From: an uncultured Sphingomonas sp.
GTDB lineage: Bacteria > Pseudomonadota > Alphaproteobacteria > Sphingomonadales > Sphingomonadaceae
Direction: 5' to 3'
Length of the DNA stretch: 64,000 nt
Assembly (NCBI GenBank): GCA_913775315.1
Contig: CAJYIX010000025.1
Coordinates: forward strand, 39,134 to 103,133
The translations under genes and the position numbers were made by a program. How positions within the stretch are numbered: position 1 is the first letter of the stretch; each line of letters opens with the position of its first letter. The notes below the pieces were generated by a model, which was given only the letters and a program-made list of their open reading frames with translations, made no database searches and was not told where the DNA came from. Below, piece after piece: positions 1 through 26,669 of this stretch.

Positions 1-1506
1 TCGCGCGTCGATGCCGCGGTCGCGCGCTCCGCCTATGCCACGGCACTCGACGGTTACGGCTTTCCCTTTGGCGCGGTCGATATCGGCGGCTGGCGCAACG
101 GGCCCTATGTCGTGGCGCAGAACATGGGCGCCTATATCGACGTGCCCAAATTCCTCGATTCGAGCCACACGGTCGAGGAAGCGGCGGATGCGGAAGCGTA
201 TCTCGCCCGCCTTGACGCCTTCGCCGACCAGCTCGACGGCGAGACCGGGCGGCTGAAGGATGCGCGCGCGCGCGGTATCGTCGCCAGCGACGTCTTGATG
301 GACAAGACGCTCGGCGCGATCCGCATGACGCGAAAGGGCGAGCCGGCGACGTGGGACGTCGTCACCTCGCTCACCAAGCGCACCGGCGCGATCCCCGGCA
401 ACTGGGGGCCGCACGCCGCCAAGATCGCCGAGAGCCGCATCGCCCCCGCACTCGACCGCCAGATCGCCGAGCTCGAAGCGCACCGCAAGGTCGCCACTGC
501 CGATGCCGGCGTTTGGAAGTTCCGCGACGGCGACGCCTATTACGCCTGGGCGCTGCGCGCCTCGACCACCACGCGCATGACCCCGGACGAGGTTCACGCG
601 ATGGGGCTGTCGGAACTCGCCAAGCTCCAAGCCGAGATGGACACGATCCTGAAAAAGCTCGGCTATACGAAGGGGAGCGTCGGTGCGCGGATGATCGCGC
701 TGGGCAAGGACCCGCGCTACACCTTCCCCGACGACGACAGCGGCCGCGCGCAGATCATGGCGCTGATCCAGAACCGCATCGCCGATATCCGCACCCGCCT
801 GCCGCGCGCGTTCGCCACGCTCGTCGACGGCCGGGTCGAGGTCCGCCGCATTGCGCCGGCCGAAGAACCGGGCGCGCCGGGTGCCTATGGCGGCGCGGGG
901 TCGATCGACGGCAAGGTACCGGGCCGCTTCTGGATCAACCTGCGCACCACCGACCTGCACACGAAGTTCAGCCTGCCGACGCTGACCTATCACGAATCGA
1001 TCCCCGGGCACGTCTGGCAGGGCGAATACACGCACAAGCTGCCGCTGATCCGCACGCAGATGGGCTTCAACGCCTTCTCCGAGGGCTGGGCGCTCTATGC
1101 CGAGCAGCTGGCGGGCGAGCTTGGCGTCTATGACGACGATCCCGTGGGCCGCCTCGGCTATCTCCAGTCGATCGCGTTCCGCGCCTGCCGCCTCGTTGTC
1201 GACACGGGGCTCCACGCCAAGCGCTGGACCCGCGAAAAGGCGATCCAGTGGTTCGCTGAAACCAACGGCTCCGGGCTGGACGAGGTGACGAGCGAGGTCG
1301 ACCGCTATTGCGCATGGCCGGGGCAGGCCTGCGGTTACAAGGTCGGGCACAGCGAGATCAACCGCCTGCGCACCCAATCGCAGGCGCGGCTTGGCGGGCG
1401 CTTCGATTTCCGCGGCTACAACGACGTGGTGGTCAAGGGCGGCGGCGTGCCGCTCAACGTCCTTGCCCAGAATGTCGAGCGGTGGGAGGCGTCACGCCGC
1501 GCCTGA
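1..1506 (+). CDS. DUF885 family hydrolase, 5' end missing
   Basis: The frame is open from the first base of the window, so the true start lies to the left; the ATG at 112 is internal. About 501 codons remain. The protein carries the DUF885 signature HESIPGH (first His near codon 331) followed by a GWALYAEQ segment, a zinc-peptidase-like pair of motifs seen throughout this family. Members are often exported in sphingomonads, but the signal region is outside the window. The exact substrate is unknown; peptidase activity is only an inference from the HExxxGH-like motif. The 3' end overlaps the convergent MscS gene by 15 bp. Confidence 0.85.
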   Translation, partial: SRVDAAVARSAYATALDGYGFPFGAVDIGGWRNGPYVVAQNMGAYIDVPKFLDSSHTVEEAADAEAYLARLDAFADQLDGETGRLKDARARGIVASDVLMDKTLGAIRMTRKGEPATWDVVTSLTKRTGAIPGNWGPHAAKIAESRIAPALDRQIAELEAHRKVATADAGVWKFRDGDAYYAWALRASTTTRMTPDEVHAMGLSELAKLQAEMDTILKKLGYTKGSVGARMIALGKDPRYTFPDDDSGRAQIMALIQNRIADIRTRLPRAFATLVDGRVEVRRIAPAEEPGAPGAYGGAGSIDGKVPGRFWINLRTTDLHTKFSLPTLTYHESIPGHVWQGEYTHKLPLIRTQMGFNAFSEGWALYAEQLAGELGVYDDDPVGRLGYLQSIAFRACRLVVDTGLHAKRWTREKAIQWFAETNGSGLDEVTSEVDRYCAWPGQACGYKVGHSEINRLRTQSQARLGGRFDFRGYNDVVVKGGGVPLNVLAQNVERWEASRRA

Positions 1507-15306: not shown

Positions 15307-15954
15307 ATGTCTGCAAATGCTGCCCCCGCTTCCGGGGTCGAACTGTCCCGTCGGGGGGTCCTGATGGGCTCCGCCGCGACCGCCGCTGCTGCTGGCACCG
15401 CGCCGCTGGTGGCGCAGGGCACGACGCCCAGCCCCGCCCCGGCCAACCTGCCGTTGAAGATGAAGGTCAACGGCAAGCCCCGCGAGCTGAAGCTCGACCC
15501 GCGCACGACATTGCTCGACGCGCTGCGCGAGCATCTGCAGCTCACCGGCACCAAGAAGGGCTGCGACCACGGACAGTGCGGCGCCTGCACCGTCATCGTT
15601 AACGGCAAGCGGATCAATTCCTGCCTCAGCCTGGCGGTGATGCACGAAGGCGACGAGGTGACGACGATCGAGGGCCTCGGCACCCCTGACAAGCTGCATC
15701 CGATGCAGGCGGCGTTCATCAAGCATGATGGCTATCAGTGCGGCTATTGCACGCCCGGCCAGATCTGTTCGGCGGTCGCCGTACTCGACGAGATCAAGCG
15801 CGGCGTGCCCAGCCACGCGCAGGCCGACCTCACCGCCGCGCCCGGCGCGACGGGCGAGGAAATGCGCGAGCGGATGAGCGGCAACATCTGCCGCTGCGGC
15901 GCCTATTCGAACATTGCCGAGGCGATGGCCGAGGTTGCGGGAGCGAGCGCATGA
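15307..15954 (+). CDS. paoA: Aldehyde oxidoreductase [2Fe-2S] subunit, Tat-exported
   Basis: A 215-residue iron-sulfur subunit of a xanthine-dehydrogenase-family enzyme. A twin-arginine signal ([18 protein letters not shown]) sends the folded complex to the periplasm. The plant-type ferredoxin domain has [18 protein letters not shown], and the second cluster domain has [10 protein letters not shown] and NICRCGAY. The order and sequence follow E. coli PaoA (YagT). Its stop overlaps paoB (ATGA). The ATG at 15307 gives the complete Tat signal, although the ribosome site is weak. Confidence 0.93.
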
Positions 15955-16901
15955 AGGCCTTCACCTATGAGCGCGCCAAGGACCCCGTCGCCGCCGCGCG
16001 CGCGGTCGCCGGGCGGCCCGGCGCCAAGTTCATCGCGGGCGGCACCAACCTGCTCGACCTGATGAAGATCGAGGTGGAGACACCCACCCACCTCGTTGAC
16101 GTGCAGGATCTGGGCTTCGACAAGATCGAGGCGACGAAGGACGGCGGACTGCGCATCGGTGCGCTCGTCACCAACACCGACCTTGCCGCCGACGAGCGGG
16201 TGCGCCGCGACTATGCCGTGCTGACCCGTGCGATCGTTGCGGGTGCCTCGGGCCAGCTTCGCAACAAGGCGTCGACCGCTGGCAACCTGCTGCAGCGGAC
16301 GCGGTGTTCTTACTTTTACGACACCAACATGGCCTGCAACAAGCGCAAGCCCGGCTCAGGCTGCGCCGCGATCGGCGGCTATTCGCGCCAGCTCGGCATC
16401 ATCGGCGTCAGCGACCAGTGCATCGCCACCTTCCCCGGCGACATGGCCGTCGCGATGCGCGTGCTCGATGCGGTGGTCGAGACGATCGACGCCGAGGGGC
16501 AGCGCCGCTCGATCCCGATCGCCGAGTTCCACCGCCTGTGGGGCGACAAGCCTGAACAGGACACGGTGCTGAAACCCGGTGAGCTCATCACGGCCGTCAC
16601 CCTGCCCCGCCCGCTCGGCGGCAAGCATTTCTACGAAAAGGTCCGCGACCGTGCCTCCTACGCCTATGCGCTCGTCTCGGTGGCGGCAGTGATCCAGCCG
16701 GACGGCACCGGCCGCGTCGCCTTCGGCGGCGTCGCCCCCCGTCCGTGGCGGGTCGAGGAAGCCGAGGCGCTGCTCCCCAAGGGCGCCGCCGCCGTCACCG
16801 AACGCGCCTTCCAAGGCGCGACCCCCACGAAGGACAACGCCTTCAAGCTGCCGCTCGCCACGCGCGCGCTGGCCTCCGTCCTCGCCGAAGCAAAGGGCTG
16901 A
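15951..16901 (+). CDS. paoB: Aldehyde oxidoreductase FAD-binding subunit
   Basis: A 316-residue FAD subunit of the CO-dehydrogenase-flavoprotein type ([33 protein letters not shown]). A Cys-rich insert ([11 protein letters not shown]...GCAAIGG...DQCIA) corresponds to the extra [4Fe-4S] site found in PaoB. It carries electrons from the molybdenum subunit to the acceptor. It overlaps paoA and is 4 bp from paoC, so the three form one operon. No XdhC/PaoD-like cofactor chaperone is present in this window. Confidence 0.92.
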
Positions 16902-16905
16902 TCCG

Positions 16906-19119
16906 ATGAAGTTCGACACGCCGGCCGGCACCAACCCGATCGACAACGAGGCCGTCGTCGGCCGCCCCCACACCCGCATCGACGGCCCGCTCAAGGTGAC
17001 GGGCCTCGCCCCCTATGCCTATGAGCATCACAAGGAGGTCGAAAACCCCGCCTATGGCTATGTCGTGGGCTCCGCGATTGCCAAGGGGCGGATCACCAAT
17101 CTTGACGCCAGCGCCGCCAAGGCCGCGCCGGGCGTCATCGCGGTCGTCACCGCCGCCGATGCCGGAAAGCTCGGCAAGGGCAATTTCAACACCGTGAAGC
17201 TGCTCGGCGGGCCGGAGGTCGACCATTACCACCAGGCGATCGCGATCGTCGTTGCCGAAACCTTCGAACAGGCACGCGCCGCCGCCGGCCTTATCAAGGT
17301 CGATTATGCGCGCGCCAAGGGCCGCTTCGACCTGACCGAGGGGCTCAAGACCGCCAAGCTGGCCGGTGGCGGCGACAGCGGGAACGAGGCCAAGGAGGAT
17401 CGCGTCGGCGACTTCGAAAAGGTGTTCGGCGAAGCGCCGGTTAAGATCGACGTCGAATACACGACCCCCGATCACAGCCACGCGATGATGGAGCCCTTTG
17501 CCTCGATGGCGGTGTGGGAGGGCGACAGCGTCAAGGTCTGGACCTCGAACCAGATGATCGCCTGGGGCCACGGCGACCTCGCCAAGACGCTGGGGATGCC
17601 CAAGGAAAAGGTGCGGCTGATGTCGCCCTATGTCGGCGGCGGGTTCGGCGGCAAGCTGTTCCTGCGCACCGATGCGGTGATGGCGGCGCTTGGCGCGCGC
17701 GCGGCGAATCGGCCGGTCAAGGTCGCGCTCGCGCGGCCGATGATGGCGAACAATGCCACGCACCGTCCCGCGACGCACCAGCGCATCCGCATCGGCGCGA
17801 CCAAGGATGGCACGATCACCGCGATCGCGCACGAAAGCGGGTCGGGCGACCAGCCCGGCGGCTCGCCCGAGATCGCGGCGGCGCAGACCAAACTCCTCTA
17901 CGCCGGTGCCAACCGCCTCGTCGCGATGCGGCTTGCCGAGCTCGACCTGCCCGAAGGCAACGCGATGCGCGCGCCGGGCGAGGCACCGGGGATGATGGCG
18001 CTCGAGGCCGCGATGGACGAGATGGCCGAGAAGCTCGGCATGGACCCCGTCGCCTTCCGCATCAAGAACGACACGCAGGTCGATCCCGCCAAGCCCGACC
18101 GCAAGTTCTCGCAGCGCCAGCTCGTCCGCTGCCTCGAAACCGGCGCCGAGAAGTTCGGCTGGTCGAAGCGTCAGGCCAAGCCCGGCTCGGTCCGCGACGG
18201 CAAGTGGCTGGTCGGCATGGGCGTCGCCTCGGCCTTCCGCAACCACATGAACATGACCTCGGGCGCGCGCGTGCGGCTCGGCCCCGATGGCGTCGTGACG
18301 GTCGAGACCGACATGACCGATATCGGCACCGGCAGCTACACGATCATCGCGCAGACCGCGGGCGAGATGCTGGGCGTGCCGGCCGAGCAGGTGGTGGTGA
18401 AGCTGGGCGATTCGAGCTTCCCCGTGTCCGCCGGCTCGGGCGGCCAGTTCGGCGCGGCCAACGCGACCGCGGGTGTCTATGCCGCCTGCGTTAAGCTGCG
18501 CGAGGCAGTGGCGCAGCGGCTCGGCTACAACTCGGCAGACGTGACCTTTGCCGACGGCAAGGTCACGAGCGGCAATCGCTCGGCGAGCCTCAAGGACGCG
18601 GGCCGCGGCGGCGAGCTGGTGGGCGAGGACAAGATCGAGTTCGCCGGGCTGGACAAGACCTACCAGATCTCGACCTTCGGCGCGCATTTCGTCGAGGTGG
18701 GCGTCGACAGCTATACCGGCGTCGTTCGCGTCCGCCGGATGCTGGCGGTGTGCGCGGCGGGGCGGATCATCAACCCCGTCTCCGCGCGCAGCCAGGTGAT
18801 CGGCGCGATGACGATGGGCGTCGGCTCCACGCTGATGGAGGAGCTGGCCGTCGACAAGCGGTTCGGCATGTTCGTGAACCACGACCTCGCCAGCTACGAG
18901 GTACCGGTCCACGCCGACATCCCGCATCAGGACGTGATCTTCCTCGACGAGGCGGACGACAAGGCGAACCCGATGAAGGCCAAGGGCATCGGTGAGCTGG
19001 GCCTGTGCGGCGTCGGCGGCGCGGTCGCGAATGCGATCTACAACGCCACCGGCGTGCGCGTGCGCGACTATCCGATCACGCTTGAAAAGCACCTCGAAAA
19101 GCTGCCCGAGGTCGCCTGA
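16906..19119 (+). CDS. paoC: Aldehyde oxidoreductase molybdopterin-binding subunit
   Basis: A 737-residue molybdenum-cytosine-dinucleotide subunit. It begins MKFDTPAGTNPIDNEAVVGR as PaoC does, has GGGFGGK in the cofactor-binding region and ends with GIGELGLCGVGGAVANAIYNATG, which contains the catalytic Glu. It oxidises aldehydes, probably aromatic ones, in the periplasm. It has no signal of its own and should travel with PaoA through Tat. A strong hairpin terminator follows at 19128-19158. Confidence 0.94.
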   Translation: MKFDTPAGTNPIDNEAVVGRPHTRIDGPLKVTGLAPYAYEHHKEVENPAYGYVVGSAIAKGRITNLDASAAKAAPGVIAVVTAADAGKLGKGNFNTVKLLGGPEVDHYHQAIAIVVAETFEQARAAAGLIKVDYARAKGRFDLTEGLKTAKLAGGGDSGNEAKEDRVGDFEKVFGEAPVKIDVEYTTPDHSHAMMEPFASMAVWEGDSVKVWTSNQMIAWGHGDLAKTLGMPKEKVRLMSPYVGGGFGGKLFLRTDAVMAALGARAANRPVKVALARPMMANNATHRPATHQRIRIGATKDGTITAIAHESGSGDQPGGSPEIAAAQTKLLYAGANRLVAMRLAELDLPEGNAMRAPGEAPGMMALEAAMDEMAEKLGMDPVAFRIKNDTQVDPAKPDRKFSQRQLVRCLETGAEKFGWSKRQAKPGSVRDGKWLVGMGVASAFRNHMNMTSGARVRLGPDGVVTVETDMTDIGTGSYTIIAQTAGEMLGVPAEQVVVKLGDSSFPVSAGSGGQFGAANATAGVYAACVKLREAVAQRLGYNSADVTFADGKVTSGNRSASLKDAGRGGELVGEDKIEFAGLDKTYQISTFGAHFVEVGVDSYTGVVRVRRMLAVCAAGRIINPVSARSQVIGAMTMGVGSTLMEELAVDKRFGMFVNHDLASYEVPVHADIPHQDVIFLDEADDKANPMKAKGIGELGLCGVGGAVANAIYNATGVRVRDYPITLEKHLEKLPEVA

Positions 19120-19215: not shown

Positions 19216-21573
19216 ATGTATCCGCTTTCCCGCCTGCATCGCCTCGCCCTCCCCGCGCTACTGGTCGCTGCCGCAGCACCGGCCGCGGTCCGCGCCGCCG
19301 ATCCCGCGCCGTTCGACCTTGCCGGCCCCGACCTTCGCATCCGCGTCACGCGCGGCACCGCGATGCTGCCGATCGCCGAGGTCCCGGAGCTGGCCGCGGG
19401 CGACACGGTCCGCATCGAGGCCGACCTGCCCGCCGACCAGCGCGCACGCTTCATCCTCGTCTCCGCCTTCCTGAGCGGTGCGACCAACCCGCCCCCGCGC
19501 GACTGGATCCGCTCGGCCGAGACGTGGAAAACGAAGGAGAAGGACCGCGTCCTCACGCTGACCGTGCCGGAGGGCGCCCGCCAGCTCGCCGTCTTCCTCG
19601 TCCCCGAGACCGGCAGTGCGGAGGGCACCATCGCCAGCGCCGTCCGCGGCAAGCCCGGCGAGTTCGTCCGCGCGACCCAGGCGATCAACCGCGCGTCGCT
19701 CGACCGCTCGCGCCTCAACGCCTTCGTCGCGGCGATTCGGGGCGAGGAGGACGACGATCCCGCGCACCTGAAGCGCGTCGCGCCGACGCTCGCCAAGAGC
19801 CTCGCGATCAAGCTCAATGCCGAATGCCTCGACAAGGTGGTCGACTATCAGGTCGCCTGCCTGCTCGAGAACCGCGAGTCGCTCGTCCTGACCGACGTGC
19901 ACAGCAGTTCGCTGGCCGAGACGATCGCCGGCGCGCCCACCAACCTGGCGCTGCAACTGAGCTACACGCGCGAGGCGGGCTTCGGTTACTACAGCCAGTA
20001 TATCGCCGTCGTCCGCGACATCGCGCGATTGTTCGGCGCGTTCAGCAATCCGCAATTCCGCTACCTCCCCGCGCTGGGCCTGCGCGGCGGGGATCGCATG
20101 TCGCTCCTGCTCGACACCGCGCCCTCCTTCGCCAAGCCGCGCTCGGTGATCGTCGCGCCGATGCCCGCGATCGGCGGCGACAGCCCGCCACGGCTGCGCG
20201 CCGCCAGCGACGCCCCGCTGTGCGGCGCCGACCCCGCGCTAACGCTTCCTGTCGAGGGCGCGCCGCTGATCTATTCGACGGATTTCGCGCGCGACATGGC
20301 ACTGGTCGCCGGCGGCCAGCGCGTAGCTTTGCGCGCTCGCGCCGACCGCGGCGGCTATGTCGTTACTGCGCCGCTCACCGGCATGGGCACGGTAGAGGGC
20401 CGGATCGAGGGGCGCTGGGGGTTCGAACCGCTGACCGGCCCCGCCTTCCGCCTGCAATTCCCCGACGGCAAGGGCTGGACTGCGGCGGAGGACGCAACGC
20501 TCGTCGTCGGCCGCGACAACATGCTCGACCTGCGCGGCGCGGCCCCCGCCTGCATCACCGGCGCGACGATGCGCATCGGTGACGGCCCGGCCCGCGACGT
20601 CGCGTTCAAGCCGCAGGACGACGGCCGTCTAGCGCTCACGCTCCCGCTGGCCGACGCGAAGGCGGGCCGCGTGTCGATCGAGCTGCGCGAAACCGGCGCG
20701 GCGAAACCGACGACCCTGACCCTGCGCGCCTATCGCGAAGCGAGCCGGATCGACGCCGTCACTGTCCATGCCGGGGACGCCGCTGCCGAACTCACCGGCC
20801 AGCGCCTCGACCTGGTCGAGCGCGTCGAGATCGGCGACCTGCGCGCAGTCCCGCAGGGTCTGACGCGCGAAGCCAAGACCGATCGCCTGGCACTGACCGG
20901 CGCCGGCACCGCGCCCGCCGCGGGCAATGCGACCGCGCGCGTCATCCTCAGCGATGGCCGCACGCTGACCATTCCCGTTACCGTCCGCCCGCCTCGCGTC
21001 GCCGCCGCGATCATCGAGGGCAGCGTCCGCGTCGAGGGCACCACCCCCTTCACTCCAGTCGAACCGGGAGAGCCGCTGCTTCCCGCCGACGCAACGCTCC
21101 GTTTCGCCGTCCGCGCCTCGACCGGCGACCTTGCCCCGAGCGACACCATCGAGATCGCCGGTCCGGCGGGGCAGACCGCCCGCCTCGTCGCCGGGCCGCG
21201 GCTTCAGCTTCAGGGCAAGGACGTGCTCGTCGCCGCGCTCGATCCCGCCGCGCTCGGCCCCTCGGCGTTCGGGCCGCTCCGCTTCCGCCTCGTCCGTGGG
21301 ATCGAGGCGAGCGACTGGCGACCGCTGGCCACACTCGTCCGCCTGCCCGCGCTCCAGCCGGTCAAATGCGATGCGAAGGCGCGCTGCACGCTGCGGGGCG
21401 AGGGCCTGTTCCTGATCGAGGCGGTCGCCCCGACCCGCGCCTTCGGCGATGCTGTTGCCGTTCCGGACGGCTTCACCGGCCCGGCGATCGAGGTGCCGCG
21501 CCCGGCCGATGGCATGCTCTACCTGAAACTGCGCGACGCCCCCGGCCGCATCGTCACGCTGCCCGCCAAGTGA
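19216..21573 (+). CDS. Large exported protein of unknown function
   Basis: 785 residues with a clear signal peptide (LHRLALPALLVAAAAPAAVRA, then AADPAP), so periplasmic or surface-located. I recognise no family. The first ~330 residues contain helical stretches (QAINRASLDRSRLNAFVAAIRG; KLNAECLDKVVDYQVACLLENRESLVLTD). The remainder (~340-785) looks like successive beta-rich, Ig-like segments with alternating hydrophobic strands. Cysteines are few and paired (KCDAKARC near the end), which suits disulfides. The GTG of the following LysR gene overlaps its stop (GTGA), so the two are co-translated. The neighbouring exporter operon makes it a candidate partner or cargo, but nothing in the sequence proves this. 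Confidence 0.8.
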   Translation: MYPLSRLHRLALPALLVAAAAPAAVRAADPAPFDLAGPDLRIRVTRGTAMLPIAEVPELAAGDTVRIEADLPADQRARFILVSAFLSGATNPPPRDWIRSAETWKTKEKDRVLTLTVPEGARQLAVFLVPETGSAEGTIASAVRGKPGEFVRATQAINRASLDRSRLNAFVAAIRGEEDDDPAHLKRVAPTLAKSLAIKLNAECLDKVVDYQVACLLENRESLVLTDVHSSSLAETIAGAPTNLALQLSYTREAGFGYYSQYIAVVRDIARLFGAFSNPQFRYLPALGLRGGDRMSLLLDTAPSFAKPRSVIVAPMPAIGGDSPPRLRAASDAPLCGADPALTLPVEGAPLIYSTDFARDMALVAGGQRVALRARADRGGYVVTAPLTGMGTVEGRIEGRWGFEPLTGPAFRLQFPDGKGWTAAEDATLVVGRDNMLDLRGAAPACITGATMRIGDGPARDVAFKPQDDGRLALTLPLADAKAGRVSIELRETGAAKPTTLTLRAYREASRIDAVTVHAGDAAAELTGQRLDLVERVEIGDLRAVPQGLTREAKTDRLALTGAGTAPAAGNATARVILSDGRTLTIPVTVRPPRVAAAIIEGSVRVEGTTPFTPVEPGEPLLPADATLRFAVRASTGDLAPSDTIEIAGPAGQTARLVAGPRLQLQGKDVLVAALDPAALGPSAFGPLRFRLVRGIEASDWRPLATLVRLPALQPVKCDAKARCTLRGEGLFLIEAVAPTRAFGDAVAVPDGFTGPAIEVPRPADGMLYLKLRDAPGRIVTLPAK

Positions 21574-22469
21574 CCACGCAGCCGACGCTCCGACAGCTTC
21601 GCTACCTGATCGCGCTCGCCGATCATGGCAGCTTCACCCGCGGTGCCGCGGCGGCGGGGGTGTCGCAGCCCAGCTTCTCGCAGCAGATCCAGTTTCTCGA
21701 GGCGCTGCTCGGCGGCCGGGTGGCCGAGCGCGGCGCGACGAAGACGATCCTGACTCCGCTGGGGCGAGAGGCCGTGGCGGGCGCGCGCCGCGTGCTGGCG
21801 GAGGTGGCGGCGTTCGAGGCGCTGGCCGACCGTCGCGGCGATGCGCTGTCGGGCACCATCCGCCTCGGCGTCTCGCCGACGCTCGGCCCCTATATCCTGC
21901 CCCAGTTGGTCGCGCAGTTGCACGCGGTCAGCCCCGACCTTCGGGTCCATGTGCGCGAAGGGCTGCCCAACCGGCTCGTCGAGCTGCTGGCGGACGGCAC
22001 GCACGACGTGATCCTCGTGCAGCTACCCATCGCCGACCGCGGCCTGCACGTCGAGCGGCTGTTCCGCGAGCCGCTGTTTCTCGGCATGGCCTCCGACGAT
22101 CCGCTGAAGAAGCACGAGGCGATCGCCGTCGGGGATCTGGCCGGGCGCGGGCTGCTCACGCTCCAGCCGCAATACCGGATGAGCGAGCAGGTCGCGGCTC
22201 TTGCCGAACAAGCGGGAGCGCACGTGCTGCGCGATTACGAGGGGACCAGCCTCGACGCGATCCGGCAAATGGCGGGCATGGGCATGGGTCTCGCGCTGCT
22301 GCCCCGCCTCTATATCCGCCAGGAAATTCGCGAGGGGGACGGCCTGATCGTCCGACCGTTCGCTGGCGGGCGCCAGTATCGCGAGATCGGTCTGGTGTGG
22401 CGATCGGGGGCCGGGCGAGCGCCCGCATTTCTCACGCTTGCGCAATTGCTACGCGATGTTGCGCAATAG
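21570..22469 (+). CDS. LysR-family regulator, OxyR-like but cysteine-free
   Basis: 299 residues. The N-terminal winged HTH (LRQLRYLIALADHGSFTRGAAAAGVSQPSFSQQIQFLEALLG) and effector domain resemble the OxyR branch of LysR proteins. No cysteine occurs anywhere, so the OxyR peroxide-sensing disulfide cannot form; it must sense something else or act constitutively. The GTG start overlaps the stop of the exported protein. A LysR-type box (T-N11-A) overlaps its own stop codon and sits in front of the exporter operon, which is its likely target. Confidence 0.88.
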   Translation: MTTQPTLRQLRYLIALADHGSFTRGAAAAGVSQPSFSQQIQFLEALLGGRVAERGATKTILTPLGREAVAGARRVLAEVAAFEALADRRGDALSGTIRLGVSPTLGPYILPQLVAQLHAVSPDLRVHVREGLPNRLVELLADGTHDVILVQLPIADRGLHVERLFREPLFLGMASDDPLKKHEAIAVGDLAGRGLLTLQPQYRMSEQVAALAEQAGAHVLRDYEGTSLDAIRQMAGMGMGLALLPRLYIRQEIREGDGLIVRPFAGGRQYREIGLVWRSGAGRAPAFLTLAQLLRDVAQ

Positions 22470-22556: not shown

Positions 22557-24239
22557 ATGGCGGACCAGCGCCCGGGTATCCGGGCCTTTGTAGGGTGGAT
22601 CGGGCTGGTGCTGACCCCCGACGCGGCCTTCGTAAGGCTGGCGATCGTCTATGGGATCGCCATCTCGCTCCTGTCGCTGGCGACGCCGATTTCGGTTCAA
22701 TTGCTCATCAATTCGGTTGCCAACACCGCGCTGCCGACGCCGCTGTTCACGCTCGCTGGGCTGCTCTTCCTGCTGCTGATGATCGCGGGCGTGCTCGCCG
22801 CCTTCCGCGTCCATTTGCTCGCGCAGTTCGAGCGGCGGCTGTTCGCGCGGATCGTCGCGGAGATCACGATCCGCGCCGTCCATGCACAGAACCCGTTCTT
22901 CGCCGATGCGCGGCGCGGCGACCTGTTCAACCGCTATTTCGACCTGATGACGGTGCAAAAGGCGCTGCCGAGCCTGATCATCGGCGGCTTCACCATCTTC
23001 CTTCAGGGCGCGGTGGGCCTGGTCGTCACCAGCTTCTACCACCCTTTCTTTCTCGCCTTCAACGCGGTGCTGGCGCTGTCGCTGTTCCTCGTCTGGCAGT
23101 TCTGGGCCTCTGGCGCGATCCGCAGCGCGGTCGAGAAAAGCCATGCCAAGCACGCCGCCGCATATTGGCTGGACAGCGTCGGCGGGTCGAACGGCTTCTA
23201 TAAATCCAGCCGCCACCTCGACTTCGCGATGGACCGGTCGGAGGCGATGACCGCGGGCTATGTCGCCGCGCATCGCCGCCATTTCCGCTACACCTTTGCC
23301 CAGACGTGTGCGCTGCTGCTCATCTATGCGGTCGCCAGCGCCGCGCTGCTCGCGCTGGGCGGCTGGCTCATCATCCAGAACCAGCTCTCGATCGGCCAGC
23401 TCGTCGCCGCCGAGCTCATCCTGTCAGGCGTCTTTTACGGCATCGCCCAGTTCGGTCCGTATCTGGAGGCGCTGTACGACCTCGCCGCGGGCCTCGAGGA
23501 GCTGTCGCTCTTCTGGGACGTGCCGCAGGAAGCGGGCAAGGCCGATGGCGAAGGCCCGGCGGATGGCTCGATCCGCATGGCCCGCGTCGAACATGATGGC
23601 CGCCGCTTCGACTTCGAGGTCGCCGCTGGCGAGCAGTTGGCGGTCGTCGCCGCACCGGGGGTCGAGCGGTCGCTGGCGATGCTGTTCAAGCGGCATCAGA
23701 GCCCGGCCCGCGGCCTCACCGTCATCGGCGGGCGAGAGATCGGCGGGCTAGATACCTATCGGTTGCGGGCCGAAGTGATGGTGCTCGACCGGCCGAGCTT
23801 CGTCGAGATGTCGATCCGCGACTATCTGACGCTTGCCGCGTCGGGGGATGCCGCACGCATGGTCGAGGCGCTGGAAACGGTGGGCCTGGCCGAGCGGCTG
23901 GGCGGTCTGGCGGAGGGGCTGGACACCGTGATCTCCACTTCCGGTTGGCCGCTGTCGGTGGGCGAGCTGATGGCGCTAAAGCTCGCTGCCGCGCTCTTGG
24001 CGAAACCCAAGCTCCTCGTCCTCTCGCCGCTCTACGACCTGCTCCCGCCCGAACGCGTCGATGCGGTGCTTGCGCGGCTGCGCGGCGATACCACCGTCCT
24101 TCAGTTCACGCGGCGACCGCAGGGCCTCTCGCGCGACGGCGCGCTCTGGATCGGCACCGACGAACAGCGCCGCTGCGCCACCGAGGCCGAGCTGATCGCA
24201 CTCGCCAGCGAAGGAGGCAGCGATGCCCTTCCAGCCTGA
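22557..24239 (+). CDS. ABC exporter-like membrane protein with a dead nucleotide-binding domain
   Basis: 560 residues laid out as a type I secretion/HlyB-like half transporter. About six membrane segments fill residues 1-300 and a nucleotide-binding-domain fold fills ~335-545, with no N-terminal C39 peptidase. The second domain aligns by eye along its length with ABC ATPases, but each motif is lost. Walker A is AAPGVERSL (365-373, Lys to Arg371, Gly to Glu370). The Q-loop region reads VMVLDRPSF. The signature is LSVGE (466-470). Walker B is LLVLSP (Asp to Ser490, Glu to Pro491). The switch His is Arg519. ATP hydrolysis is therefore unlikely. SD GGGAGA precedes the ATG. It overlaps the HlyD gene by 17 bp. 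Confidence 0.85.
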   Translation: MADQRPGIRAFVGWIGLVLTPDAAFVRLAIVYGIAISLLSLATPISVQLLINSVANTALPTPLFTLAGLLFLLLMIAGVLAAFRVHLLAQFERRLFARIVAEITIRAVHAQNPFFADARRGDLFNRYFDLMTVQKALPSLIIGGFTIFLQGAVGLVVTSFYHPFFLAFNAVLALSLFLVWQFWASGAIRSAVEKSHAKHAAAYWLDSVGGSNGFYKSSRHLDFAMDRSEAMTAGYVAAHRRHFRYTFAQTCALLLIYAVASAALLALGGWLIIQNQLSIGQLVAAELILSGVFYGIAQFGPYLEALYDLAAGLEELSLFWDVPQEAGKADGEGPADGSIRMARVEHDGRRFDFEVAAGEQLAVVAAPGVERSLAMLFKRHQSPARGLTVIGGREIGGLDTYRLRAEVMVLDRPSFVEMSIRDYLTLAASGDAARMVEALETVGLAERLGGLAEGLDTVISTSGWPLSVGELMALKLAAALLAKPKLLVLSPLYDLLPPERVDAVLARLRGDTTVLQFTRRPQGLSRDGALWIGTDEQRRCATEAELIALASEGGSDALPA

Positions 24240-25281
24240 CCATATCGTCCATTTCCCGACGCTGGCGAGCATCCGGCCGCCGCGAGTGACGCGAGTCGTC
24301 GCGTGGCTGGTCGTCTTCGCCATTGCGGCGGTAGTCGCGATCCTGATCCTCGTCCCCTGGGTCCAGACCTCGGCCGGCGCGGGCCAGATCGCCGCGCTCG
24401 ATCCCGAGGATCGCGTGCAGGACGTGACCGCGCTCGTCCCCGGCCGAGTGGAGCGCTGGTACGTTCGCGACGGCGACCTAGTGAAGCGCGGCGACCCGAT
24501 CGCGAAGATAACCGACAACGACCCCGATCTCCTCGCCCGCCTCGCCGCCGAACGCGCGCAAGTGCTCGCCGAGATCGCCGCCGCGCAGCAGGCGATGGCC
24601 GTGTCGCAGATCGACGTCGGCCGCTCCGCGCAATTGCTGGCCGAGGGGCTGGCCGCGCGCCGCGACTATGAAGCCACGCAGATCAAGGTCGCCGACCAGC
24701 GCGCCAAGCTCGCCGAAGCACGCGCCAAGCTGACCCGCGTCGACGTGACGCTCAACCGCCAGTCGGCACAGCTTGTCCGCGCGCCGCGCGACGGGCGTAT
24801 CCAGTCGATCAACGCCGCCGCCGGCGCGACGCTCGTCTCGGCGGGCGACCTGCTCGCGACGCTCGCGCCCGAAACGCCGGTGCGAGTGGTCGAGCTGATG
24901 GTCGACGGCCGCGACATTGCGATCATCCGTCCCGGCCGCCCGGTGCGGCTGGCGTTCGAGGGGTGGCCCGCGATCCAGTTCAGCGGCTGGCCCTCGGTCG
25001 CGCAGGGGATGTTCGACGGCCGCGTCCGCTCGATCGACCCCTCGGCCCAGACCACCGGCCTGTTCCGCGTGCTGGTCGAACCGATGCCGGGGAAGCCCGG
25101 CTGGCCAGGCACCGGCTTCGTCCGGCTGGGCGGTAAGGTGCGTGGCTGGATTCAGGGTGAGACGGTGAGCATCGGCTACGAACTCTGGCGCCAGCTCAAC
25201 GACTTCCCGCTCGAGTTCCGCCGGCCCGCGGACGAGCCGAAGGGCCCCGGTCCCGATCCGGTCGTGAAGGTAAAGAAATGA
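24223..25281 (+). CDS. HlyD-family periplasmic adaptor (membrane fusion protein)
   Basis: 352 residues. One membrane helix (VVAWLVVFAIAAVVAILILVPW) lies near residues 25-47. Then come a split biotinyl-lipoyl domain (LVPGRVERWYVRDGDLVKRGDPIAKI ... RAPRDGRIQSINAAAGATLVSAGDLLATL), a short coiled-coil hairpin and a beta-barrel region. It joins the inner-membrane exporter to a TolC channel. SD GGAGG precedes the ATG. It overlaps both its neighbours, so the three genes are translated as a unit. Confidence 0.9.
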   Translation: MPFQPDHIVHFPTLASIRPPRVTRVVAWLVVFAIAAVVAILILVPWVQTSAGAGQIAALDPEDRVQDVTALVPGRVERWYVRDGDLVKRGDPIAKITDNDPDLLARLAAERAQVLAEIAAAQQAMAVSQIDVGRSAQLLAEGLAARRDYEATQIKVADQRAKLAEARAKLTRVDVTLNRQSAQLVRAPRDGRIQSINAAAGATLVSAGDLLATLAPETPVRVVELMVDGRDIAIIRPGRPVRLAFEGWPAIQFSGWPSVAQGMFDGRVRSIDPSAQTTGLFRVLVEPMPGKPGWPGTGFVRLGGKVRGWIQGETVSIGYELWRQLNDFPLEFRRPADEPKGPGPDPVVKVKK

Positions 25282-26669
25282 TCCGCCCGATCGCCATCGC
25301 CGCGGCGGTCTTCGTCGCCGCCCCCGCCGCCGCCCAGCAACTGCCGCTGGACGAGGTGCTGCGCTCCTCCGCCACCCACGCCCCCGCGATCCTCGAGGCG
25401 ATCACGCGCGAGCGACAGGCGAACGGTCGCCGCCTGTCGGCCGAGGGCGCGTTCGACCTGTTGTTCGAGGGGGACGCCCAGTCGCGGGTGGCGGGATACT
25501 ATGACGGTACCGTTGTCGAGGGGAAGGCGACCCGCCCGCTCGCCAACAACGGCGGCTATCTCTTCGGGGGCTACCGCGTCTCGCGTGGCGATTTCCCGAT
25601 CTACGAGGACAAGGCGTTCACCAATCGCTTAGGCGAGGTGAAGGTCGGCGCAGTGTTCTCGCTCATGCGCGACCGGCTGATCGACGAGCGGCGCGGACGG
25701 TTGGGGCTGGCGGGCGGCGACATCGCCCTCGCGCGACTCGACCGCGAGATGGTGGCAATCGGCGTACAGCGGCGCGCGATCGACGCCTATCAGGCATGGG
25801 TCGTCGCCGGCATGCGCGTGCGCGTCTATCGCGACCTTCTCGGCCTCGCGACCGAGCGGCAGGCGTCGATTGAGCGGCTGATCGCCCTCGGCGCGCGCCC
25901 GCAGATTCTGGGGACGGAGAACCGCCAGAACATCGTCCGCCGCCAGACGCTGCTCGTCCGCGCCGAACAGGACCTCGCCGCCGCCGCCAACGCCCTCTCC
26001 TTCTACCTCCGCAACGAGAATGGCGAGCGGCTGGTCCCCGCCGCCGAGCGCCTGCCCGACCGCTTCCCGGAACTGCGCCTCCCCGCCCTCGGGCCCGACC
26101 TAGCGCAGCGGATCGAACGGCCGGACCTCGAAGCGATCCTCGTCCGGCTGGATCAGGTCGAAGTGAAGCGCCTGCTTGCCGAGAACGACCTGCTCCCGCG
26201 GCTGGATATCCGGGCGGAGGCAGCCAAGGACGTGGGGCCGGTCGGGCTTGGCGGGTCGTCGCGGACGCCGGCGGAGGGGATCGTCGGCCTGCGCTTCTCG
26301 CTCCCCCTCGAACGCCGTGCCGCCCGCGGCAAGATCGCCGAGGCGGCCGCCGAGGCCGACGGGCTGCGCCTTCGCCGCAAGCTGATCGAGGATCAGATCC
26401 TCGTCGAGGTGAACGGCCTCGCCATCCAGGCGACGACGGCCGACCGGCTGCTAGCGCTGGCCGTCGACGAAACCGCGCTCGCAAACCGCATGGCGGAGGC
26501 AGAGCGCCGCCGCTTCCAGCTCGGCGCCAGCGATTTCATCGTCGTCAACCTGCGAGAGGAGAGTGCCGCCGACGCCCGCCTGCGCCAGCTCGATGCCGAA
26601 TATCGCCGCTCGGCCGCCCGCGCCGAACTGGTGGCGGCGACCGTGGATCGGGTGCAGTTGGGCCTGTAA
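25278..26669 (+). CDS. TolC-family outer-membrane efflux protein
   Basis: 463 residues with a signal peptide (MIRPIAIAAAVFVAAPAAAQQ). Two related helical halves follow, with the long coiled coils typical of TolC trimers (LAENDLLPRLDIRAEA; RKLIEDQILVEVNGLAIQ; RRRFQLGASDFIVVNLREES). It forms the outer-membrane tunnel for the exporter and HlyD adaptor encoded directly upstream (4-bp overlap, ATGA). A single-copy TolC fixed to one adaptor suggests a dedicated pathway. Confidence 0.88.
   Translation: MIRPIAIAAAVFVAAPAAAQQLPLDEVLRSSATHAPAILEAITRERQANGRRLSAEGAFDLLFEGDAQSRVAGYYDGTVVEGKATRPLANNGGYLFGGYRVSRGDFPIYEDKAFTNRLGEVKVGAVFSLMRDRLIDERRGRLGLAGGDIALARLDREMVAIGVQRRAIDAYQAWVVAGMRVRVYRDLLGLATERQASIERLIALGARPQILGTENRQNIVRRQTLLVRAEQDLAAAANALSFYLRNENGERLVPAAERLPDRFPELRLPALGPDLAQRIERPDLEAILVRLDQVEVKRLLAENDLLPRLDIRAEAAKDVGPVGLGGSSRTPAEGIVGLRFSLPLERRAARGKIAEAAAEADGLRLRRKLIEDQILVEVNGLAIQATTADRLLALAVDETALANRMAEAERRRFQLGASDFIVVNLREESAADARLRQLDAEYRRSAARAELVAATVDRVQLGL

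Follow-up and report, generated by a model that had tools for sequence, protein, structure and literature searches.

How can an ATP-binding cassette (ABC) exporter work when its ATPase domain has lost every catalytic motif, and is such a protein a functional component or a relic? This question is raised by a three-gene operon in a 64,000-nucleotide stretch of DNA (hereafter the window) from an uncultured Sphingomonas sp. (GenBank assembly GCA_913775315.1, contig CAJYIX010000025.1, positions 39,134 to 103,133 of the forward strand). The first gene encodes an ABC exporter homologue with a degenerate nucleotide-binding domain (NBD), and the two that follow encode a periplasmic adaptor and an outer-membrane channel (Table 1). 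As far as can be predicted from sequence, the anatomy is solid: the operon is tripartite and of the efflux type, its ABC exporter being conserved but ATPase-dead. The ABC protein is very probably not powered by ATP hydrolysis of its own.

The operon and its degenerate ABC protein

The exporter-HlyD-TolC order with overlapping genes, described in the initial annotation, was confirmed: all three open reading frames (ORFs) were recovered, Pfam agreed with their assignment, and the overlaps amount to 17 bases between the ABC and adaptor genes and 4 bases between the adaptor and channel genes. The component set of type I secretion (an ABC protein, an HlyD-type adaptor and a TolC-type channel) is present. 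The ABC protein matched ABC_membrane (PF00664) above the cut-off with 30.8 bits and ABC_tran (PF00005) with 23.7 bits, below the 25-bit cut-off; it also fell below the cut-offs of the NCBIfam models for type I ABC proteins (TIGR01846, 101.6 vs 725.55 bits; TIGR03375, 82.4 vs 693.1 bits). The adaptor passed the RND_mfp model (97.8 bits vs a cut-off of 94.9) and failed the type_I_hlyD model (70 vs 208.65).

The closest solved protein by sequence was HlyB (E = 3.7e-20). The alignment spans residues 23-499 and runs through most of the NBD, in line with the initial annotation that the nucleotide-binding fold had been retained. Along this alignment and that of the orthologues, the losses it listed for the Walker A, signature, Walker B and switch-His motifs were all seen, and the Gln of the Q-loop, which was not on its list, is replaced as well. 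Thus, the catalytic set expected of a functional ABC exporter (Walker A Lys, Walker B Asp and Glu, signature and switch His) is absent from the window protein. An AlphaFold2 model built from 11 sequences was poor, with a mean predicted local distance difference test (pLDDT) score of 56.6 and a predicted TM-score (pTM) of 0.38, and therefore no geometry was read from it and only its Foldseek matches were used. This low-confidence model aligned nearly end to end with the type I exporters TM287/288, HlyB, TmrAB and CydDC at TM-scores of ca. 0.35-0.5, which supports a predicted type I exporter fold but not its details. Membership of the ABC exporter superfamily, with a transmembrane domain (TMD) and an NBD in one chain, is indicated by PF00664, the HlyB alignment and these Foldseek matches.

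The motif losses are shared by orthologues

Relatives were sought in genus, order, class and phylum genome sets, which overlap and each of which includes the window's genome. Within the genus, 32 of the 101 genomes, the window's own included, carry a close relative, which is in one piece in 31 (at least 54% identity) and split in one (G006). In the latter (L050/L090), a frameshift or an assembly error has left the ABC frame as two ORFs (395 and 364 amino acids) that overlap. Matches were obtained in 28/196 genomes of the order (E <= 1e-30) and 4/240 of the class (1e-26); the sole class match outside the order (G351) proved to be an intact HlyB-type protein. A profile search detected 11/398 phylum genomes at 1e-50 and 3/289 class genomes, all three within the order.

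The initial annotation had asked whether the losses were common to orthologues that keep the HlyD-TolC neighbours, and this was the case. None of the 47 aligned Sphingomonadales loci, two pairs of which are identical, retains the Walker A Lys or the Walker B Asp (Glu occupies the catalytic column in L072 and L074), so that the motif loss is not due to chance. The adaptor and channel genes are kept in 49 of the 51 loci of the order, a count of loci in which near-identical ones from two sources enter twice, and the remaining two (L051 and L089) are cut by contig ends. The partners are likewise kept in 12/12 loci examined outside the order.

The same operon, with its motifs gone, was found in 8/79 genomes of a family taken as gammaproteobacterial (f179), and the Walker B Asp is lost in all eight gamma loci (L110-L113 and L115-L118). 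A more distant set was found in another order, in 4/120 genomes, and in 14/60 genomes of its family f224. Here, 13 of the 14 copies retain both a Lys in Walker A and the Asp in Walker B, with the catalytic Glu changed to Gly or Asp and the switch His changed to Arg. Unlike these 13, the copy in a 1.3-Mb genome (L139, G1148) has lost Walker A, apparently as an independent event. Outside f224, Walker A is degenerate in L121 and all motifs are lost in L119. Adaptor and outer-membrane channel genes are present at L114, L119, L120 and L121; within f224, neighbourhoods were read at L114 and L120, the other loci having short flanks.

Among all fetched loci, 137 carry a family member scoring above 165 bits (lowest family score, 192.7; top non-family score, 161.2), and 84 distinct sequences remained after 53 repeats with the same last 300 residues were dropped. 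Not one of the 84 has Lys, Asp, catalytic Glu and switch His together. Lys occurs at the Walker A column in 14, 13 of which come from f224 and have a P-loop or a near P-loop, while in the 14th (gamma L106, the same gene as L118) it lies outside any P-loop; three fragments (L050, L051 and L088) are gapped at this column. The Walker B Asp is kept in 15/84, never with the catalytic Glu, and the two sequences with Glu at the catalytic column (L033 and L035) lack the Asp. His is found at the switch column in 6/84, where the alignment drifts. The signature is degraded to LSVGE, LSLVE, LQPLE and similar forms, with its Ser retained in 56/84. A chance P-loop pattern was noticed near residue 528 in L006, L008 and L009. 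With no intact sequence in the clade, degeneration confined to this genome, which would have indicated decay, was not observed, and a single-genome oddity was rejected.

Matches were also present in 15 PLSDB plasmid records of sphingomonads, and the operon resides on plasmids and secondary replicons (L156, L157 and L158), for example on pNL2 of N. aromaticivorans DSM 12444. The N. aromaticivorans copy bears the locus tags SARO_RS19820-19810. Because of the plasmid records and its patchy spread, the operon appears to be an accessory trait. Several of the ATPase-dead members are labelled 'ABC transporter ATP-binding protein' in databases, which matters for annotation; others are labelled 'ABC transporter transmembrane domain-containing protein'.

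Phylogeny and selection

In trees calculated with FastTree, with Shimodaira-Hasegawa-like support only and an outgroup of chosen nearby exporters rather than a full survey, 43 sampled family members formed one clade against 22 intact exporters (support of 1.0 for the TMD, 1.0 for the full length and 0.998 for the NBD). The 28 tips lacking the Walker B Asp formed a clade inside the family (0.978, 0.999 and 0.961, respectively). The simplest history would be that hydrolysis was lost at the base of the family and that ATP binding was then lost in the window's subclade, and apparently again in L139 and L121. On the full-length tree, the intact exporter closest to the family was L149, with a weak support of 0.566, but this was not so on the TMD or NBD trees, and hence no sister family is claimed.

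In four chosen orthologue pairs, the ratio of nonsynonymous to synonymous substitution rates (dN/dS, NG86) was 0.047, 0.123, 0.218 and 0.223 for the NBD and 0.053, 0.111, 0.192 and 0.132 for the TMD. These low NBD ratios indicate that the dead domain is maintained under purifying selection. The degenerate domain also has conserved residues of its own: Asp494 is found in 41/43 family tips, where 20/22 intact exporters have Ser, and Arg412 in the former Q-loop is invariant in a 27-row alignment (A1). The view of the initial annotation that the gene is not simply decaying, thus, agrees with the absence of intact motif sets, the retained partners and NBD dN/dS values well below 1.

A conserved glutamate in the membrane domain

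Most of the invariant columns of A1 fall in the membrane domain. Six residues there, Gln150, Gln249, Tyr257, Gln281, Glu286 and Tyr307, mark the family, each being present in 40 to 43 of the 43 tips. Glu286 is present in all 43, and the intact exporters have Asn, Val, Ser, Met or Thr instead; a conserved titratable residue is, thus, present in a membrane helix. In the alignment, Glu286 corresponds to F331 of mouse P-glycoprotein (P-gp). F331 equals human F335, a residue of transmembrane helix 6 (TM6) in the drug-binding cavity (PMC6168518). LmrA deprived of its NBD is reported to be a proton-coupled secondary transporter whose dependence on the pH gradient is abolished by E314A in helix 6 (PMC2704374; PMC6155054). 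A carboxylate at position 286 would, by this alignment, face the substrate path.

Search for a partner ATPase

The window's genome encodes four other ABC_membrane proteins, namely an MsbA-related protein just below the model cut-off, two that were not placed and an LssB-type protein of type I secretion above the cut-off (L125). In 14 family-bearing genomes, chosen by hand and several of them for their small size, there were 2 to 8 ABC_membrane matches per genome, including the dead protein. In G1065 (1.7 Mb, 99% complete, 60 contigs), MsbA (733.6 vs 602 bits) is the sole ABC exporter-type protein besides the dead one. No second ABC exporter gene was found in 63 of the 64 family loci longer than 8 kb; the exception, L086, has other ABC exporter genes 4-10 kb away from the dead exporter. 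An intact partner subunit next to the gene, as expected of a heterodimer, is, thus, lacking at these 63 loci, though a partner gene might lie at a distance. At least for G1065, it is unlikely that there is a dedicated partner of the exporter type, considering that MsbA is the only other candidate there, that 63/64 loci have no second gene and that the signature is degraded; the survey covered exporter-type proteins, with stand-alone ATP-binding proteins outside it.

Intact ABC exporters with the switch motif HKP are encoded at 16975-18777 of L086 and 7346-9079 of L087. The one in L086 lies ca. 10 kb from the dead exporter, and two further ABC exporter ORFs lie on the opposite side.

What may drive the exporter

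We hypothesise that the system operates as described here. The three genes would encode a tripartite efflux pump, with the ABC protein, which would have given up ATP hydrolysis, as its inner-membrane component. This protein may form a homodimer in the usual exporter fold with HlyD and TolC on top, and its NBDs would clamp the dimer and act as a scaffold in the cytosol rather than as a motor. Efflux would be coupled to an ion gradient via protonation of Glu286 in the central cavity, akin to the membrane domain of LmrA, and the adjoining LysR-type regulator probably turns on the operon upon sensing a small molecule. For this explanation as a whole, from hydrolysis-free export by a homodimer with an NBD clamp to ion coupling at Glu286 and the LysR switch, we estimate a probability of roughly 45%. 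An ion gradient as the driving force is our best single guess, at a little under even odds. That an entire ABC exporter family has moved off ATP, with an ion-driven engine, coupling through an invariant TM6 carboxylate and a dead NBD kept as a clamp, is proposed tentatively on the basis of the sequence comparisons, the odds being somewhat against it.

Several points weigh against coupling at Glu286. Two residues past it, the alignment to P-gp is gapped, and since the structural model is poor, its exposure to the cavity was judged from the sequence alignment. LmrA Glu314 presumably lies nearer the cytosolic end of TM6 and perhaps not at the position of Glu286. The entire TM6 block GQLVAAEL is conserved, not Glu286 alone, and the role of Glu286 could be to hold a cationic substrate, or the adaptor, instead of protons. 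It is also present in the relatives that retain Walker A and, therefore, does not track the full loss of the NBD motifs. Moreover, E314A leaves potential-driven transport by LmrA intact (PMC2704374), and full-length LmrA requires ATP hydrolysis for ethidium transport according to a 2018 paper (PMC6155054), which limits LmrA as a precedent.

The alternatives differ in where the energy would come from. An active ATPase encoded elsewhere could power the protein as the dead half of a heterodimer or as a minority subunit in a mixed HlyB-type complex; among heterodimeric exporters, a single degenerate site is a common feature (PMC7756269), and candidates exist in the other exporters of the window's genome, including the LssB-type one, and in those of L086. 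With so degraded a signature, however, pairing with an intact partner is hardly expected to yield a normal composite site even though the Ser often persists, and the lack of a second gene at nearly all long loci and the MsbA-only complement of G1065 argue against it as well. We consider this alternative unlikely, and the data favour, by inference only, an ion gradient rather than a partner ATPase. The protein might instead not be an active pump at all, serving as a gated passive channel, a scaffold for HlyD and TolC or a substrate sensor for the LysR protein. The disappearance of the energising motifs and the LysR gene beside the operon at nearly half of the loci of the order would fit such a role, but the concentration of invariant columns in the membrane domain would be needless for a mere scaffold, and a passive route through both membranes would be costly; this, too, appears rather unlikely.

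ATP might also be bound without being hydrolysed, gating the transporter like a switch instead of powering it. The pattern of the 13 f224 copies is what such a switch would leave, yet the well-supported subclade of the window has neither the Walker B Asp nor a P-loop, and the Lys has also gone from L139 and L121. ATP binding appears, therefore, to be dispensable, which makes a switch improbable. Gene decay or a sequencing artefact, for which the split frame of G006 might speak, was rejected as highly improbable in view of the one-piece relatives in 31/101 genus genomes, the losses common to all 47 loci, the kept partners and the low dN/dS.

Regulator and neighbouring genes

A LysR homologue adjoins the operon, in either orientation, in 23 of the 51 family loci of the order. 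The LysR protein of the window scored 179.9 against the OxyR model, below the cut-off of 329, and none of the 23 operon-linked LysR proteins has a Cys at the peroxide-sensing column, which we take from the motif to be that of OxyR Cys199 (E. coli numbering). OxyR-type peroxide regulation was, thus, rejected. A plasmid-borne member of these LysR proteins is labelled 'hydrogen peroxide-inducible genes activator' by NCBI. In the gamma group, another LysR-like gene lies upstream in 4/8 loci, divergently in L110, L112 and L113 and codirectionally in L115. Of the two gamma proteins tested against the NhaR model, that of L115 passed (226.8 vs 219) and that of L110 failed (176.5). NhaR responds to sodium in E. 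coli, and an NhaR-like neighbour is at most a hint of ion stress.

Within 6 kb of the operon, where a secreted substrate might be encoded and individual neighbours are mostly unannotated, no gene besides the operon and LysR genes recurs widely, and a conserved fourth operon gene was rejected. Upstream in the window, a gene for a PaoC-type periplasmic aldehyde oxidoreductase (1336.8 vs 1180 bits) lies within 15738-19119, preceded by an ORF (15738-16901) taken for PaoB from its position. Among the loci compared, these two adjoin the operon only in L040 and L042. The protein encoded at 19216-21573 (785 amino acids), which begins like a signal peptide and matched no family above a cut-off, was likewise found only in these two loci.

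Table 1. Features of the operon and its regulator gene in the window
Feature	Residues	Position	Strand	Basis or remark
LysR-type regulator, OxyR-like sequence		21570..22469	+	start likely GTG at 21570; larger ORF from 21366
ABC exporter homologue with degenerate NBD	560 aa	22557..24239	+	ORF; Pfam ABC_membrane; HlyB and P-gp alignments; orthologue alignment
Transmembrane domain	ca. 14-330			
NBD-like domain	ca. 335-540			
Glu286 codon, TM6	286	23412..23414	+	Glu in 84/84 distinct family sequences, 0/22 intact exporters
Degenerate Walker A, AAPGVERSL	365-373	23649..23675	+	
Replaced Q-loop, LDRP	410-413	23784..23795	+	orthologue alignment
Degenerate signature, LSVGE	466-470	23952..23966	+	orthologue alignment
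Degenerate Walker B, LLVLSP (Asp and Glu gone)	486-491	24012..24029	+	orthologue alignment
Arg519 at the switch-His position	519	24111..24113	+	
HlyD/RND-type periplasmic adaptor	352 aa	24223..25281	+	HlyD_3, HlyD_D23, Biotin_lipoyl_2; RND_mfp above cut-off
TolC-like outer-membrane channel	463 aa	25278..26669	+	PF02321 OEP; N-terminus signal-peptide-like by eye

Comparison with known systems

Whether ABC membrane domains can run on ion gradients has been debated mainly via LmrA and MsbA, both of which are true ATPases. The present clade appears to be a natural experiment, in that three bacterial groups keep an exporter and its NBD fold without a working ATPase. A single protein of this family could help decide if secondary transport is within the reach of ABC exporters and which roles NBDs have beyond hydrolysis. 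Among the top papers listed by the literature searches, several of which were aimed at ATPase-dead or degenerate exporters, none dealt with a tripartite system built on a fully ATPase-dead ABC exporter; most subscription journals and all bioRxiv preprints lay outside these searches. In the available passages, a review covering degenerate sites (PMC7756269) and one covering tripartite systems (PMC8277102) describe dimers in which one site is degenerate, not wholly dead ones. The HlyBD2-OMP2 system of Blastomonas fulva T2, in which hlyB (1659 bp), hlyD2 and omp2 were compared with N. aromaticivorans genes at 48-58%, probably belongs to the dead-exporter family, judging from size and similarity; it is listed among ATP-driven ABC pumps, with the motif loss unmentioned in the available passages (PMC9505733).

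The operon resembles the HlyB-HlyD-TolC system of type I secretion in its ABC-adaptor-channel gene order and type I exporter fold, HlyB being the best solved relative. It differs in the degenerate NBD motifs, in the size of the ABC protein (560 residues vs 707 in HlyB, whose extra N-terminus is a C39-like domain), in the short adaptor of the RND/HlyD_D23 kind, which stays under the type_I_hlyD cut-off, and in having no recognised substrate gene adjoining. The heterodimers TM287/288, TmrAB and BmrCD share the type I fold and non-canonical Walker B and switch residues, and are among the top Foldseek matches, but they retain one canonical site, whereas the window family has one gene and, at 63 of the 64 long loci, no second. 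The truncated laboratory construct LmrA-MD is reported to act as an ion-coupled secondary transporter, in which coupling to the pH gradient requires a glutamate in TM6 (PMC2704374); LmrA itself, however, is an ATPase, while the dead NBD of the window family is natural and conserved and its TM6 Glu may lie elsewhere along the helix.

Pumps of the EmrAB-TolC type export small molecules by means of the proton gradient. They share with the window operon a short HlyD-family adaptor and an outer-membrane channel, but their inner-membrane part is a transporter of the major facilitator superfamily (MFS), where the window has an ABC exporter fold. If the proposed ion coupling is true, tripartite pumps of the secondary-active class would comprise, in addition to the resistance-nodulation-division (RND) and MFS types, a third kind represented by this family.

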